Part shown: piece by piece, positions 49,173 to 56,731 of the stretch
Numbering within the stretch: position 1 is the first letter of the stretch
Layout: each line of letters begins with the position of its first letter
From: Roseibacillus sp.
Lineage (GTDB): Bacteria; Verrucomicrobiota; Verrucomicrobiia; Verrucomicrobiales; Akkermansiaceae
Assembly: GCA_002686085.1 (NCBI GenBank)
Contig: NZAC01000049.1
Location: 1 to 64,000 of the forward strand
Direction of reading: 5' to 3'
DNA: 64,000 nt
Made by a program: the position numbers and the translations under genes
Notes under the pieces: model-generated
What the model was told of the DNA's origin: nothing
Databases searched by the model: none
Seen by the model: the letters and a program-made list of their open reading frames with translations, nothing else

Positions 49173-51476
49173 TCAGTGTCTGAAGAGAAACTCTTTTGAG
49201 TTGAGAAGGGCCCATGAAATGTCCTCGAGGGCCCCTCGTCTTTCGTTGCCGGGACGATCCGCGATGTGTTGCAGCAGTACTTCCTGTTCCTCAGTAGTCG
49301 GAGGCCTGTTTATTGCCGTCCAGTAGAGCTCAGCCAGAATCTCCTCGGCGCTCAATTTACCGGACAGGAGTTGGTCAAGGCGGTTGCCCTTCGCCTTGAG
49401 AAGAGTGGAGAGGGTCTCTCCACTTGTCATTTCAAAGGCTTGAGCCAGTGAGATTTCATTCAGGCGTTCAGCGTCTGAGTTCAGCAGTCGTGGGGGTTTG
49501 CCAAACAGGTGCAGAAAACGGTCATCATGATGAGGGTTCTTCTCAAGGAACGCGCCCTTGATTCCCGGAAGGGCAAGCGCCCGCTTGATGTTCTCGTATT
49601 GTTTGAATTTTCCAGGTTGGCCGAGTGCAGAGTGAGCGGCATCGAGGAGGACTTCGGCAGGTAGCCTTGTCATGGATGCCCGGGCATAGTTTTCGGAATC
49701 TTCATTATTGGTGCCATCAGCTTCGGTAGAGAGTTGATAGGTGCGAGAGGTTGTGATTCGCAGGATAAGATGTCGCAGGTCGTAGCTGTGGTCAGCGAAA
49801 TCCTTTGCGAGTGCTTCCAGTAACCCGGGGTGGCTGGCCGGGTTGGTGGGGCGGAAGTCATCAACCGGGTTTACCAGACCACGCCCCATCAAGTTGTACC
49901 AGATCCGATTTGCCTGGACCATGGCAAAGAGGGAATTGCTTGGGCCGGTTATCCAATCGGCAAGTTGCTCGAAACGGTCTTGCTCCGCATTCAAGGCAAC
50001 TGCTTCAGATCCCAGAAGTCCCGGCTCAGGTGGTTTTTTACTTCTTGGATCCTTAAACTTCCGCTCTGGGACCAGTTGGACTTCTTGTTCTCCAACGAAG
50101 GTATTCTTGTCGAACTTGTCGCGGCGCTTGTTCTCGATAACCTTGTAGTCAATGCCGTCAAAGAGAGCTGCGAACTTGTAGTATTCATCTTGGGTCCATC
50201 GGTCGAAGGGGTGGTTGTGGCACTTGGCACAACGCAAGCGGGCACCGAGAAAGAGTTGGGCGGTAGCTTCGGAGCGATCGGTTGGATTGCGGAGTGCCCG
50301 ATAGTAGTTAGCTGGAGGATTCTTATAGGTGCTTCCCCGAGCGGTAAGAAGTTCGCGGACGAACTGGTCAATTCCCTTGCCCTGATCAAAGCTTTCGCGC
50401 ATCCAGCCGTGGAAGGCCTCAACCCCGGTGCTGTCGAGGACCTTTTCCTCGTTGCGCAGGAGATCAGACCACTTGAGAGCCCAGAACTGAGAATACTCCG
50501 GTCTTTGGAGGAGTTGCTTAACGAGTGTTTCCCTTTTGTCTTTCGCGGGGTCGGCAACGAAGGAACGAGCTTCTGCAGCCGTAGGTAAGGTCCCAATGAT
50601 ATCAAGGAAGGCGCGTCTGACAAAGGTGGCGTCGTCACACAATCCCGATGGGTTCATGCGGAGACGACGCAGCTTGGTGAAAATGTGCTCGTCGATATAA
50701 TTGAAAGGCACCGGATCATTCCAAGCAAACTCGGGACGCTCAGGGAGAAGGGTGATGCGAGTTGAAACGTGCTTGTTCAAATAACGGGTGAGAACCGTTG
50801 TCTCTCCCGGTTTGAGGAAGGTGACTTTCCCCTTCGGATCTATTTCGGCCAGCAGGTTCGAGAGGCTGTAGGTCGCCCAATAAGTTACGTCGCGTTGCTC
50901 TCCATCTTCGAAGGTCGCCCAAACCCTGAGCTGAAGACTGCGTTGCGGTTCGCTGAAAATGGCAGAATCGGGGGTAACCTCCAGAGAGATCAAGTTGGCT
51001 GCTCCGCCGCTATCATCTTCTGCGCCCTGTGCGATCCAGCGGAGCAAAAGGGAGTATTCCTGCGAATCGACGGCGAAGCGCTCGTTGCCCTTGTGCTCCA
51101 TTTGGAGAGTTGGCTTGCGAAGAATCCAGCTGGCTGCGGGGCTGCTCTTTTTCACCCTTCTTGCGCCTTTCAGAAGAGCCTTATGGTCTTCTGCCGGATT
51201 TTCGCCCCAGAGCGACAGTTTGAGTTCGCCTTTTCCATCCCGATGGCCATGGCAGCCTCCGGTATTGCAGCCGCCCCGGGAAAGGATGGGCATGATGTCG
51301 TTCCGAAAAGAGACGGGCGTTTCTTGCGCAGAGGTGAGATCAATCGGAGACAGGAAAATTCCAAGACACAAATAGACCCGGAAGTGACTCACCATCCCCC
51401 CCAAAGATCGTCTCTGGCAGGCTCGGTTCCAAGTGTAAAGTTTGTGGATGGACCAGTCGTGGTGTGAGACGTGCAT
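49173..51476 (-). CDS. PSD1 / DUF1549-DUF1553 protein with Ig-like (BIG2-type) domain and noncanonical CX4CH motif
   Basis: RNDIMPILSRGGCNTGGCHGHRDGKGELKLSLWGENP; LISLEVTPDSAIFSEPQRSLQLRVWATFEDGEQRDVTYWATYS; CAKCHNHPFDRWTQDEYYKFAALFDG; ILAELYWTAINRPPTTEE. Start may be at the internal MVSHFRVYLCLGIFLS. Confidence 0.9.
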   Translation of the reverse strand: MHVSHHDWSIHKLYTWNRACQRRSLGGMVSHFRVYLCLGIFLSPIDLTSAQETPVSFRNDIMPILSRGGCNTGGCHGHRDGKGELKLSLWGENPAEDHKALLKGARRVKKSSPAASWILRKPTLQMEHKGNERFAVDSQEYSLLLRWIAQGAEDDSGGAANLISLEVTPDSAIFSEPQRSLQLRVWATFEDGEQRDVTYWATYSLSNLLAEIDPKGKVTFLKPGETTVLTRYLNKHVSTRITLLPERPEFAWNDPVPFNYIDEHIFTKLRRLRMNPSGLCDDATFVRRAFLDIIGTLPTAAEARSFVADPAKDKRETLVKQLLQRPEYSQFWALKWSDLLRNEEKVLDSTGVEAFHGWMRESFDQGKGIDQFVRELLTARGSTYKNPPANYYRALRNPTDRSEATAQLFLGARLRCAKCHNHPFDRWTQDEYYKFAALFDGIDYKVIENKRRDKFDKNTFVGEQEVQLVPERKFKDPRSKKPPEPGLLGSEAVALNAEQDRFEQLADWITGPSNSLFAMVQANRIWYNLMGRGLVNPVDDFRPTNPASHPGLLEALAKDFADHSYDLRHLILRITTSRTYQLSTEADGTNNEDSENYARASMTRLPAEVLLDAAHSALGQPGKFKQYENIKRALALPGIKGAFLEKNPHHDDRFLHLFGKPPRLLNSDAERLNEISLAQAFEMTSGETLSTLLKAKGNRLDQLLSGKLSAEEILAELYWTAINRPPTTEEQEVLLQHIADRPGNERRGALEDISWALLNSKEFLFRH

Positions 51477-51576
51477 GCGGGAGGTGGAAGGCAGAGTGAC
51501 TTAAAATAAAGACCGATGACAAAGTTCTGATTGAAACATTCGATCTGATGGATTCGTATGACGGCAACCTATCGCC

Positions 51577-52623
51577 ATGCTTTTAACCTCCTCTTTCAGA
51601 ATAACATTGGTCGCTGCCTGTTTGGCAGGAAACTCCTTCGGGCAACTGTGGACCGATGCGGCGGATAAAACACTTCCCCTGGACTTCCAGATTCAGGGAG
51701 AATATGCAGGTAAGAAAATGGGAGCTCAGGTCATCGCTCTAGGCAAAGGAAGGTTTCATGCGGTGATGTATCCCGGGGGATTGCCAGGTGCTGGTTGGGA
51801 TGGGCAGAACAAGTCTCTTTTGGATGGGAAGCTGGAAGGGGATAAGGCGTTATTTACCGCTGCAGCAGGCTCAAGAAGTTACATGGCTCGTGAGGCAGAT
51901 AAGTTCAGTGCTACCCGCAACTTTCCTCCGAAGGGTCATAAACCATACAGTGGATCGATTTCGAAGGGCGTGTTTTCTGGGTCTTCCTCAACGGGAGCTC
52001 AATTCTCTCTTAAGCGGATAGTCCGGAAGTCTCCCTCCCTCGGAGCAAAGCCTCCTCGTGATGCCGTCGTTCTCTTTGACGGGACCAAAGAGAGTATGAA
52101 GAACTGGCAGGGAGGTCGCTTTGATGAAAAGACGGGCTTACTCAACACCGATGGGAATGACATCCGGACCAAGCAAAAGTTTCTCAATTATATCATGCAT
52201 GTGGAATTCATGCTTCCATTCAAGCCCGATGCTCGGAGTCAGGGGCGTGGAAACAGTGGGTTCTATCAGGTGGATATGTATGAGATGCAAATCCTCGACT
52301 CCTTCGGCCTCATGGGTTTGAACAACGAGTGCGGGGGAATTTATCAGAAGGCTGATTCAAAGGTGAATATGTGCCTTCCTCCTCTTCAATGGCAGGTCTA
52401 CGATGTCGATTTTAATTCGGCGGTTATGAAGGATGCGAAGAAAGTAAGTAATGCCGTTCTTACTGCCCGGCTCAATGGAGTAACGATTCATGAAAAGCTT
52501 CAGATTAACGGTAAAACGGGTGGTGCTCGTGGAGAGCCTGAGGGCACTCCTGGCGTGATCAAGCTACAGGGCCACGGGAACCCCCTGCAGTTTCGCAACG
52601 TGTGGCTTCTTCCAAAAAAATAG
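51577..52623 (+). CDS. DUF1080 protein with an extra N-terminal domain
   Basis: GAQVIALGKGRFHAVMYPGGLPGAGWDGQNKSLLDGKLEG then DAVVLFDGTKESMKNWQGG; NSGFYQVDMYEMQILDSFG; NPLQFRNVWLLPKK. Confidence 0.88.
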   Translation: MLLTSSFRITLVAACLAGNSFGQLWTDAADKTLPLDFQIQGEYAGKKMGAQVIALGKGRFHAVMYPGGLPGAGWDGQNKSLLDGKLEGDKALFTAAAGSRSYMAREADKFSATRNFPPKGHKPYSGSISKGVFSGSSSTGAQFSLKRIVRKSPSLGAKPPRDAVVLFDGTKESMKNWQGGRFDEKTGLLNTDGNDIRTKQKFLNYIMHVEFMLPFKPDARSQGRGNSGFYQVDMYEMQILDSFGLMGLNNECGGIYQKADSKVNMCLPPLQWQVYDVDFNSAVMKDAKKVSNAVLTARLNGVTIHEKLQINGKTGGARGEPEGTPGVIKLQGHGNPLQFRNVWLLPKK

Positions 52624-52718
52624 GGAAGAATTCGTTTTCGATAAGTGCGCGATCATCTCGACAGTGTCTCGAGGCGTATTAATTTTGACCCGTTGCTACG
52701 TATCTGTCACCTGAGACA

Positions 52719-54110
52719 ATGGCTCGCAAAGAACAGAGGTCGCCGAGGACTACAGGAATGCTGATATCAGCATTGCTCGCTCTGCTAGCTCTGGAATGCG
52801 CTGCTGCGGCTAAGCCGAATATTCTGTTTATCCTTATCGACGATATGGGGTGGATGGACTTGGGCTGTCAGGGAAACCCTCACCTGAAAACCCCGAATAT
52901 CGACAGGTTTGCGACGGAGGGAATCCGGTTTACGGATGCTTATGCGCCGGCGCCCGTATGCTCCCCGACAAGGGCGGCGCTCATGACCGGGCATTCCCCG
53001 GCGCGCCTGCACCTCACCAATCATCTACCTCATCAGGATCGGTTTACCCCGCCGGAGTCGAAGCTTTTACCGGCGGAAATGAGAGACCATCTCCCGCTTG
53101 AGTATACCACGATCGCAGAGCGTCTCCGGGATGAAGCAGGATACGCCACCGCCTTCATTGGGAAATGGCATCTCTACAAGGGCCGGGAGGAAAAGTTCGC
53201 GGCTCAGTTTCAGGGTTTTGATATTAACATCGGGGGTTGCTCCTACGGGGGGCCGCCCACCTTTTTCGATCCCTACCGGATTCCGTTTCTCACAGATCGC
53301 AAGGAGGGGGAATATCTTCCAGATCGGCTGGCAGACGAAACGATCAGCTTCATGCGGAAGCAGGTGCAGGCAAAGAAACCATTCTATGTCGCCCTATGGA
53401 ATTATACCGTACACTGGCCGATGGAGGCTCCTGCGGAGTTTGTCACAAAGTGGGCTGACAAGCCAAAGGTGGGCTACAATCACAAGATTTACCCGGCAAT
53501 GTTGGAAACGATGGACCTTGCCATTGCGCGTGTTCTCGGAGAGCTCGAGCGGTTGAAAATCGAGGAGGAAACGTTCGTGGTCTTCACCTCGGACAATGGG
53601 CCGTTCGGGGGGGTGGGTGATGCGCGTCCGCTCCGGGGAGATAAAGGGCATCTTTACGAGGGAGGGATCCGGGTGCCACTGATTGTGCGGTGGCCGGGAA
53701 AGGTGGCGGCGGGGAAGGTCCGTGAGGACCCCGTCATTCTTACGGATTTTTATCCGACCCTGCTCGAGGTGGCGGGCCTGAAGACGAGGAAGCACTACCC
53801 CGGGGATGGCGAAAGCCTCCTGCCCCTCCTGACAGACAAGGGGGATCTGGAGCGGGATGCTCTCTTCTGGCATTATCCTAATTTTGCCTTTCACCGGGAC
53901 AATCGGCTGGGAAGTGCCATTCGGATGGGAGACTACAAGCTCATTGAGTTTTTTGATCGCAACGAGGTGGAACTCTATAATCTCAGGGTAGATCTCGGGG
54001 AAAAAAAGAATCTCGCGGGGGTTGAAGCAGGGCGCGTGCAGGAGATGCGAAAGCGCCTGAGCCGCTGGAGGGAGGAGAGTAGTGCTCGCATGCCTCGGCC
54101 GAGGGAGTGA
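52719..54110 (+). CDS. Sulfatase (arylsulfatase A-like)
   Basis: KPNILFILIDDMGWMDLGCQGNPHLKTPNIDRFATEGIRFTDAYAPAPVCSPTRAALMTG; CSPTR at 52959..52973; FTSDNGPFGGVGDARPLRGDKGHLYEGGIRVPLIVRWPG. Confidence 0.96.
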   Translation: MARKEQRSPRTTGMLISALLALLALECAAAAKPNILFILIDDMGWMDLGCQGNPHLKTPNIDRFATEGIRFTDAYAPAPVCSPTRAALMTGHSPARLHLTNHLPHQDRFTPPESKLLPAEMRDHLPLEYTTIAERLRDEAGYATAFIGKWHLYKGREEKFAAQFQGFDINIGGCSYGGPPTFFDPYRIPFLTDRKEGEYLPDRLADETISFMRKQVQAKKPFYVALWNYTVHWPMEAPAEFVTKWADKPKVGYNHKIYPAMLETMDLAIARVLGELERLKIEEETFVVFTSDNGPFGGVGDARPLRGDKGHLYEGGIRVPLIVRWPGKVAAGKVREDPVILTDFYPTLLEVAGLKTRKHYPGDGESLLPLLTDKGDLERDALFWHYPNFAFHRDNRLGSAIRMGDYKLIEFFDRNEVELYNLRVDLGEKKNLAGVEAGRVQEMRKRLSRWREESSARMPRPRE

Positions 54111-54179: not shown

Positions 54180-55841
54180 TCAGGCCCCGGGAGAGGGCGG
54201 GGGAACCTGAGGAGACGCTTTGGAAGGGTGTGTCTTTTTGCCATTCAGCATCGTTCCGATCAGGGTATAGCGCACAAGGTATCGATAGGTAAGAAGCAGG
54301 AAGGCAAAGGTGACCAGACAGAGCAGGGTCAGCTTGAGGGAGCTGGGAAGGTTCCAGCGTGAGATCAGGGCCTGGAGCATCATGATAAGAGGGAGGTGTG
54401 CGAGATACATCCAGTAGGAGGCATCCGAGACGAAACGTACTCCCTTGTTCTCGCGCGAGAAGAAGCTTCGAAACAGGCCGATGAAGGCGAGGATCATGAC
54501 CCATGCGAAGAGGGCTGCGCAGAGGCTGTAGACGACACGCTGCTCTCCCACGGGAACCTGCTGAAAAAGATGAATCCCATAGATCCCTAGTGGAACAGCA
54601 GCAACCAGCAGTAACGGCCACCACCGGCCGGCCTGACCTTCGAATTCGGGGCGGCCGAAGCATACTGCGCCGTAGCCAAAGAAGATGGCATAATAGAACA
54701 ACTTGGGTGGCCACGGGAGAATCCCCATCGCGGTATCAGGTCCAAAGGACTGAGTCATGAAGTACTGCGCGCAGGCCGTCAAGGGGACTAAAGCAAGGAG
54801 CGCGACCGGAGGCCGGAGGAGCCAACCCGGAAGTGAGGGAGTTCCGAGGGCCTTGAGGGTCAGGGTGGCTAAGGCGAATCCCGCAACCAGCATGAGAAGA
54901 TAGTAGAGAAACCAAAGGTGGGCAGTGAGGGGGAACATGGTGAGAAACATGTACAGGCCCTTGAGTTCATTTAGCGCGGCGGTGGATTCTTTGCCGGTGG
55001 CGCCACTTGCGATCAGGATTGGTTCAAGCTGTTCTCTTCCGGCCAGCACTTCCCTGCGGTCGACGGTGACATTGAGCATTCCGGAGATGATTTCGACTGT
55101 ATCCCAACTCTCCCGCAAGCTGTCGAGGGGGGTCTTTCCCTCCCAGGAACGGACATTCACTTGTGCGCCCTCGTCGAGGAGGAGTTTGGCAATTGCGGTT
55201 CGACCAAGAAAGGCAGCGCCATGCAGCGCAGTATGGCCCCCCTCGTCGGTTTGATCCGGGGTGGCGCCAAATTCAAGGAGGGTCTTGGCGCACTCACTCT
55301 GGTTATGCCAGACGGCGACCATCAGGGCGCTCTGGTCTGCCCGATCGGTCTGATTAGGGTCTGCACCCTGCTCCAGCTCGTGAGTTAGTTGTGCAATATT
55401 TCCCTCGTGCAGAGCGGTCCAAAAGGTGGTCTCTCCGGCAGTCCTCTGAGGCCCGACTTGAAAGCTTTTGCCCAGCTCGTCGGCGACCCATACCAGAGGA
55501 ATGATAATGATTCCACCGACAACGAGCGGCAGGAGAATGCGCTGGACGCGGTGGAGAAGCAGGGAGCCAAGACCTTTCCGCCTCCACAGCATGGTGGTGA
55601 AGTATCCGCTGATGAGGAAAAATAGGGGCATGCGGAACCCGTGGATGGCCTGGTTGGCCCATTCGTAGGCCTCATGCTGGTAGAGGTCCTGGGCGGGCCA
55701 GTAAGGATTGGCGAAAAACGAGAGAAGACCGTGCATGACGATCCCGAGCAGCATGGCGGTGGCCCGCAGGGCATCGAGGTGGTGGTGGCGGGGGGATCCG
55801 ATCACGGCGGCATCTTTTGCCGGTGTTACGAGGGAGGACAA
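54180..55841 (-). CDS. Acyltransferase-3 family (OpgC/MdoC-like) membrane protein with ankyrin repeats inserted between TM segments
   Basis: HHHLDALRATAMLLGIVMHGLLSFF, FRMPLFFLISGYFTTMLWRRKG, AHLWFLYYLLMLVAG, YWMYLAHLPLIMMLQ; ankyrin block about 54987..55430. Confidence 0.85.
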   Translation of the reverse strand: MSSLVTPAKDAAVIGSPRHHHLDALRATAMLLGIVMHGLLSFFANPYWPAQDLYQHEAYEWANQAIHGFRMPLFFLISGYFTTMLWRRKGLGSLLLHRVQRILLPLVVGGIIIIPLVWVADELGKSFQVGPQRTAGETTFWTALHEGNIAQLTHELEQGADPNQTDRADQSALMVAVWHNQSECAKTLLEFGATPDQTDEGGHTALHGAAFLGRTAIAKLLLDEGAQVNVRSWEGKTPLDSLRESWDTVEIISGMLNVTVDRREVLAGREQLEPILIASGATGKESTAALNELKGLYMFLTMFPLTAHLWFLYYLLMLVAGFALATLTLKALGTPSLPGWLLRPPVALLALVPLTACAQYFMTQSFGPDTAMGILPWPPKLFYYAIFFGYGAVCFGRPEFEGQAGRWWPLLLVAAVPLGIYGIHLFQQVPVGEQRVVYSLCAALFAWVMILAFIGLFRSFFSRENKGVRFVSDASYWMYLAHLPLIMMLQALISRWNLPSSLKLTLLCLVTFAFLLLTYRYLVRYTLIGTMLNGKKTHPSKASPQVPPPSPGA

Positions 55842-55903: not shown

Positions 55904-56731
55904 ATGCGAATGCTACGGTTTTTACTGATTCTTGTGATGGGTTTGTCAGCGAGTCTTCGGCTTGTAAGCGCGGAGGTTGCGGAGGATGGATACATTCGTG
56001 AGAACAATATTGCCTATCGCGACAAGAATTCTCCCGGGTGGGATGAGTATATGAAGGAACGCTGTGTGCTGGATCTGTATCGGCCGGCGGGGAAACAAGG
56101 ATATTCCACGGTAGTATGGTTTCACGGTGGAGGGTTGCGTGGGGGAAACAAGGCGGTACCGTGGCAGTTGCAGAAAAAGGGTATTGCGGTGGTGGCGGTG
56201 AATTACCGGCTGTTTCCGCAGGTAGAGTGCCCAGCCTATATCGAGGATGCGGCTGCTGCAGTCGCGTGGACCTTCAAGAATATTCAGCGTTATGGAGGAG
56301 ACCCCGGAGCCATTCATGTTTCCGGCCACTCAGCAGGGGGCTACCTCACCAGCATGGTAGGACTGGATAAGAGCTACCTGGCGGATCACGGAATTGATGC
56401 AGACCGAATCGCTTCTCTCGTTCCCTTCAGTGGGCACACTATTACCCACTTCACTCCCCGGGAGGAGAGGGGTATCAGTGACAGGCGGGCGATTGTCGAC
56501 AAGTTCGCGCCTTTGTTTCATGTCCGGGAGGATTCACCGCCGCTAGTGCTGATCACCGGAGACCGGGAGCTTGAGCTACTAGGGCGTTACGAGGAAAATG
56601 CGTATTTCTGGCGAATGATGCAGGTGGCGGGACACAAGCGAACCCAACTCCATGAGCTGGGAGGATTTGATCATGGAGGGATGGCTGCGCCAGCGTTCGG
56701 AATTCTTTTGAAAGTCCTACGAAGGAAGTAA
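55904..56731 (+). CDS. Exported alpha/beta hydrolase (lipase/esterase, HGGG type)
   Basis: VVWFHGGGLRGGNKAVPWQLQKKGIAVVAVNYRLFPQ; IHVSGHSAGGYLTSMVGLD; GGFDHGGM. Confidence 0.9.
   Translation: MRMLRFLLILVMGLSASLRLVSAEVAEDGYIRENNIAYRDKNSPGWDEYMKERCVLDLYRPAGKQGYSTVVWFHGGGLRGGNKAVPWQLQKKGIAVVAVNYRLFPQVECPAYIEDAAAAVAWTFKNIQRYGGDPGAIHVSGHSAGGYLTSMVGLDKSYLADHGIDADRIASLVPFSGHTITHFTPREERGISDRRAIVDKFAPLFHVREDSPPLVLITGDRELELLGRYEENAYFWRMMQVAGHKRTQLHELGGFDHGGMAAPAFGILLKVLRRK

Follow-up and report, generated by a model that had tools for sequence, protein, structure and literature searches.

An ankyrin module inserted between TMH3 and TMH4 of a conserved family of AT3 membrane acyltransferases

We analyzed a 64,000-nucleotide stretch of DNA from Roseibacillus sp. 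(contig NZAC01000049.1, positions 1 to 64,000), referred to here as the window. Its minus strand carries an acyltransferase gene (Table 1) whose reading frame is unbroken from 55841 down to 54183, with a stop codon at 54180-54182 and an uncertain start codon, TTG at 55841. A first-pass annotation had reported ankyrin repeats within an acyltransferase-3 membrane protein over positions 54987-55430, and the peptides that it quoted all share this single frame of 553 aa; the minus strand, the uncertain start and the extracytoplasmic position of the loop are details that it lacked. The reported span corresponds to approximately residues 138-285, comprising the ankyrin repeats and most of a C-terminal cap. 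Overall, the inserted segment extends over about residues 128-302, with a short linker followed by the repeats and then the cap.

Table 1. Coordinates of the acyltransferase gene, its parts and the divergent neighbor in the window.
Feature	Position	Strand	Residues or size	Evidence or landmarks
AT3-Ank acyltransferase gene	54183..55841	-	553 aa	ORF; Pfam Acyl_transf_3 and Ank; full-length relatives
AT3 N-terminal part, TMH1-3	55467..55841	-	1-125	motifs D23xxR26-x10-H37, F74xxxxG79, R98xxR101
Three ankyrin repeats	55149..55427	-	139-231	Ank_2; AF2 helix pairs; Foldseek
C-terminal cap	54966..55148	-	232-292	helices 238-242, 246-255 and 262-278 in the AF2 model
AT3 C-terminal part, TMH4-10 and tail	54183..54935	-	303-553	second Acyl_transf_3 stretch; model TM helices; conservation
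BD-FAE / alpha-beta hydrolase, carbohydrate esterase type	55904..56728	+		Pfam BD-FAE, 2.6e-24

The BD-FAE gene is divergent and lies 62 bp from the acyltransferase gene, and members of its family also occur in six related loci (L001-L006) and in L010. Elsewhere in the window, positions 49176-54107 hold genes for a PSCyt2/PSD1 protein, a 3-keto-disaccharide hydrolase and an SGSH-type sulfatase, a glycan degradation neighborhood in the style of Planctomycetes and Verrucomicrobia. Only esterase, sulfatase and PVC-type cytochrome genes recur among the close Verrucomicrobia loci, and at the loci compared we found no neighboring genes shared between phyla. With no gene neighborhood conserved across phyla, context does not suggest a partner, and we dropped operon-based prediction of the substrate. 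For this lineage alone, the BD-FAE neighbor hints that carbohydrate acyl groups are turned over, and the esterase is a possible functional partner.

The window protein is a member of the AT3 family (TmAT superfamily). Acyl_transf_3 (PF01757) matches it at 2.2e-32 with a score of 112.8 bits, compared to a gathering score of 31, in two stretches of which the best spans residues 22-125; the C-terminal part of the enzyme begins with HLWFL. The DxxR-x10-H motif is located in TMH1, FxxxxG in TMH2 and RxxR in TMH3, and we take the functional meaning of these motifs from published work (PMC9833829, PMC12423673). In an alignment of 40 Ank-bearing relatives D23, R26, H37, F74, G79, R98 and R101 are invariant, and because these signature residues are retained the AT3 domain is probably catalytically competent. 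The protein is not an AT3-SGNH fusion, as Pfam found no SGNH/GDSL match in it and only a short tail follows the last TM helix. A sequence search found no solved relative of either AT3 half.

The first-pass annotation had considered the protein against an OpgC/MdoC background; on that reading, it would succinylate osmoregulated periplasmic glucans and carry an additional domain. Of the NCBIfam models, MdoC does give the best match, but its 124 bits fall far below the equivalog cut-off of 338 (NF003014). Pfam found no OpgC_C match in the protein, and a search of the 96% complete genome gave no MdoG/OpgG (PF04349), with an E. coli control positive. The AT3-Ank protein is also present in Acidimicrobiia and Chloroflexota, from which the classical periplasmic glucan system is, to our knowledge, absent. 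We rejected OpgC/MdoC membership on the sub-threshold MdoC score and the undetected OpgG, and consider such an identity very improbable; for the same two reasons, succinylation of periplasmic glucans by the window protein is unlikely.

Between the two Acyl_transf_3 stretches, Pfam matches Ank_2 at residues 146-231 (5.8e-14), and Ank, Ank_5 and Ank_4 also score above their cut-offs. With both families above curated cut-offs, the earlier description of an AT3 membrane protein with an ankyrin module in a soluble loop stands. Foldseek searches against the PDB matched the ankyrin stack to DARPins with TMt values up to 0.89; the best 50 matches were mostly ankyrins, with no AT3/TmAT protein among them. 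We read the cap as a modified fourth repeat that holds an extra, inserted helix (TPLDS...W...GR...). Its residues W246 and G268 are conserved, R269 (module R131) is invariant in the set A2, and the cap recurs in exported proteins. Mean conservation is 0.48 for the repeats and 0.31 for the cap versus 0.58-0.67 for the AT3 core, repeat number and cap vary between clades, and most of the conserved module positions look, in the alignment, like ankyrin framework rather than a binding site.

We modeled the window protein using AlphaFold2 (AF2) with a 40-row alignment, yielding a mean pLDDT of 86.6 and a pTM of 0.75. The model helices are compatible with the ten TMHs of the AT3 fold and place the ankyrin stack between TMH3 (H91-127) and TMH4 (H307-332), flanked by two long helical stems (H91-127 and H288-302). 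The linker at residues 130-136 has a pLDDT below 50, and the model thus does not fix how the module is posed over the channel. Based on the AF2 helices and positive-inside counts, we predict ten TMHs with both termini inside.

Bacterial ankyrin proteins described so far mostly act in a cytosol, which would favor a cytoplasmic loop coupling the enzyme to a cytosolic regulator. The charge distribution argues against this arrangement: the TMH2-3 loop carries 3.5 K+R per 10 aa (inside) and the ankyrin loop 0.84, with a mean net charge of -10.5, and the positive-inside rule therefore puts the latter outside. Since RxxR marks the cytosolic end of TMH3 and the TMH3-4 loop follows directly, that loop should likewise be outside, and the topology of OafB and Oac, experimentally supported as cited in PMC9833829, agrees. 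As an independent line of evidence, relatives of the module are exported (see below), and we give the cytoplasmic arrangement scarcely any credence. Together, charge bias, predicted fold and exported relatives strongly support a module outside the cytoplasmic membrane, beside the channel mouth. Topology prediction thus upholds the soluble loop of the first-pass annotation and makes it an extracytoplasmic TMH3-4 loop, and we regard architecture and topology as well supported.

A search of a genome collection with the window protein yielded 78 loci, and the proteins were aligned. The insert lies between TMH3 and TMH4 in all 48 Ank-bearing proteins aligned, which come from Verrucomicrobiota, Planctomycetota, Actinomycetota (mostly Acidimicrobiia), one Chloroflexota and one Armatimonadota MAG, so that conservation in related genomes, a check proposed at first pass, extends across five phyla. 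All 40 full-length relatives scanned match both Acyl_transf_3 and Ank (E <= 0.001), and the combination is therefore not due to chance. One planctomycete carrier (L021), from the cultivated strain SV_7m_r, is a complete single-contig chromosome record (CP036272), and the others include MAGs assembled in many independent studies, along with several same-genus genomes; these independent contigs rule out a chimeric gene from misassembly, the refutation envisaged at the outset, for which no supporting point was found and whose probability we consider negligible.

Among 58 genomes near that of the window, 20 gave some family-profile match at E <= 1e-20; about 13 of the 58 carry a full-length or nearly full-length copy, the rest of the 20 being accounted for by a longer paralog, fragments and ankyrin-only matches. 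At least 2 of 289 Verrucomicrobiota genomes were positive in a single-sequence search that scored few candidates per genome and so undercounts. Judging from this search, the acyltransferase is patchy at the level of the phylum.

We built a tree from the AT3 core only, excluding the insert columns, for a sample drawn by similarity to the window protein. A single branch (SH-aLRT 94) sets all 48 Ank rows apart from the others, and the ankyrin state requires one change on this tree versus a shuffled mean of 23, with no loss of the insert seen among the 48 members. Because sampling was by similarity and branch support is moderate, the tree favors rather than proves a single origin of the architecture. 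The TMH3-4 loop measures 128-196 residues in most Ank forms, about 25-59 residues in the nearest Ank-less sisters and about 9-34 in more distant ones. A Pirellulaceae protein (L044:3367-5307) has two similar ankyrin+cap blocks in tandem within a loop of about 300 residues, probably an internal duplication. The window's own genome also encodes a second AT3-Ank paralog (C59, L087:2389-4854; 821 aa ORF; orthologs L107-L110) that combines the same TMH3-4 module with an extra insert of about 150 residues, without a Pfam match and apparently in the TMH5-6 loop, which is the other loop lining the AT3 cavity.

We searched the window's own genome and close relatives with a profile of the Ank+cap module. 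Among the hits are YNCE-propeller proteins carrying CxxCH haem motifs (L103-L106) and signal-peptide-bearing CotH proteins. The former include a 1706-aa exported fusion of a YNCE propeller, cytochrome c motifs, ankyrin repeats and a sulfatase (own genome, C13; L106:2253-7370). The CotH-type proteins, from genomes of the same genus (L100-L102), have a lamin-tail domain and two tandem C-terminal Ank+cap copies, and the N-terminus of L102 is a clear signal peptide. A putative lipoprotein with a lipobox (own genome, C1; L089:3917-4906) joins a small N-terminal domain to the module. Haem attachment, lipobox and signal peptides imply export, and hence that the lineage of this module lives outside the cytoplasm. 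In the module tree, exported non-AT3 modules are interspersed among AT3 modules, with weak deep branches, a pattern that suggests domain traffic among exported proteins. Reuse of the module in exported proteins joins the single frame, the intact AT3 motifs, the fixed insertion point and the occurrence in five phyla as features read directly from the sequences.

According to a model of OafB, a re-entrant segment formed by the TMH3-4 loop closes off the acyl-CoA cavity at its top, and the channel opens when this segment moves (PMC9833829); this plug comes from RaptorX modeling and molecular dynamics rather than a solved structure. As the loop modeled as a plug in OafB here holds a folded module on two stems, we propose docking-coupled acyl transfer, a mechanism that our analysis leaves at roughly even chances. 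The folded module, three repeats with a modified fourth as cap, would take the place of the channel-plug loop, and a partner protein, or else the acceptor, would dock on the ankyrin groove at the channel mouth. Because proteins are the usual ligands of ankyrin repeats, the partner is most likely a protein. On docking, the two helical stems that link the module to TMH3 and TMH4 would shift, and this movement would open the channel or position the acceptor, restricting acyl transfer to the right target. The docking and gating role, along with acyl group and acceptor, is what we infer; by default, AT3 proteins are expected to acetylate a surface glycan. The first-pass suggestion that the module tethers or regulates acylation is likewise conjectural.

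Alternatively, the module might itself bind the glycan or lipid-linked acceptor, providing fixed substrate capture at the channel mouth without a protein partner and doing the job of the fused SGNH domain of OafB. An extracytoplasmic module beside the channel (AF2, charge counts), the lack of an SGNH match in Pfam, recurrence in secreted proteins, including a sulfatase fusion, and a carbohydrate-type esterase as divergent neighbor would all fit, but ankyrin repeats are mostly protein binders, we identified no conserved aromatic or charged binding patch and the module has no known catalytic residues; we see direct capture as a serious if unlikely contender. A ligand-operated gate, in which the acyl-CoA channel is opened through the TMH3-4 plug by a signal or partner from outside the cytoplasm, would make this a regulated transmembrane acyl-transfer system with a single origin and a spread over five phyla; we find it rather doubtful. 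We are more skeptical still of a spacer or stability domain, that is, an insertion tolerated in a variable loop, hard to lose and of little effect on catalysis. Conservation below that of the AT3 core, sister loops ranging from about 9 to 59 residues and differences in repeat number and cap by clade, with two blocks in L044, would be expected of such a domain, but the insert is kept in all 48 members and five phyla without loss on the tree, its ankyrin framework is intact and the TMH3-4 loop is modeled as a functional plug in AT3 proteins.

The AT3-Ank family shares features with several known systems. AT3-SGNH enzymes (OafB/OafA of Salmonella, OatA of S. aureus) likewise have an AT3 core with DxxR-x10-H and RxxR and an extra extracytoplasmic domain near the channel exit. 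Their addition, however, is a catalytic SGNH domain that is C-terminal, after TMH11, whereas the window protein, in which no SGNH was found, has a non-catalytic ankyrin module in the TMH3-4 loop. Stand-alone AT3 proteins (Oac of S. flexneri, MdoC/OpgC) also have the core without SGNH, and the periplasmic TMH3-4 loop of Oac is also longer, but no folded domain has been reported for that loop and the window protein falls short of the MdoC cut-off. VanT (AT3-alanine racemase) and HGSNAT (extra luminal domain) similarly add a soluble domain to the TmAT fold, although these additions have other folds and lie outside the ten-TMH core. Exported bacterial ankyrin proteins also place the repeats outside the cytoplasm; AnkB of Pseudomonas is reportedly periplasmic, but not inserted in a polytopic enzyme.

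We found no description of an AT3 and ankyrin architecture in the open-access literature, an absence that is not proof, and papers on AT3 architecture, including PMC9833829, name SGNH and alanine-racemase fusions and leave ankyrin unmentioned. The first-pass view of the architecture as unusual holds against the same literature, where no characterized protein with this insert was found. The sequences are public and any Pfam annotation shows both domains; what is new is the recognition of a conserved family and of the position of its insert.

How stand-alone AT3 proteins recognize acceptors and open their channel is the field's question, and in the leading model the TMH3-4 loop acts as a plug. 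In the plug loop, the AT3-Ank family has a discrete, foldable and removable domain of a protein-binding type. If the proposed mechanism is true, the plug and missing-partner hypotheses would become addressable by a single domain swap and the module usable as partner bait, and the family would be an example of extracytoplasmic ankyrin repeats at work as part of an integral membrane enzyme.
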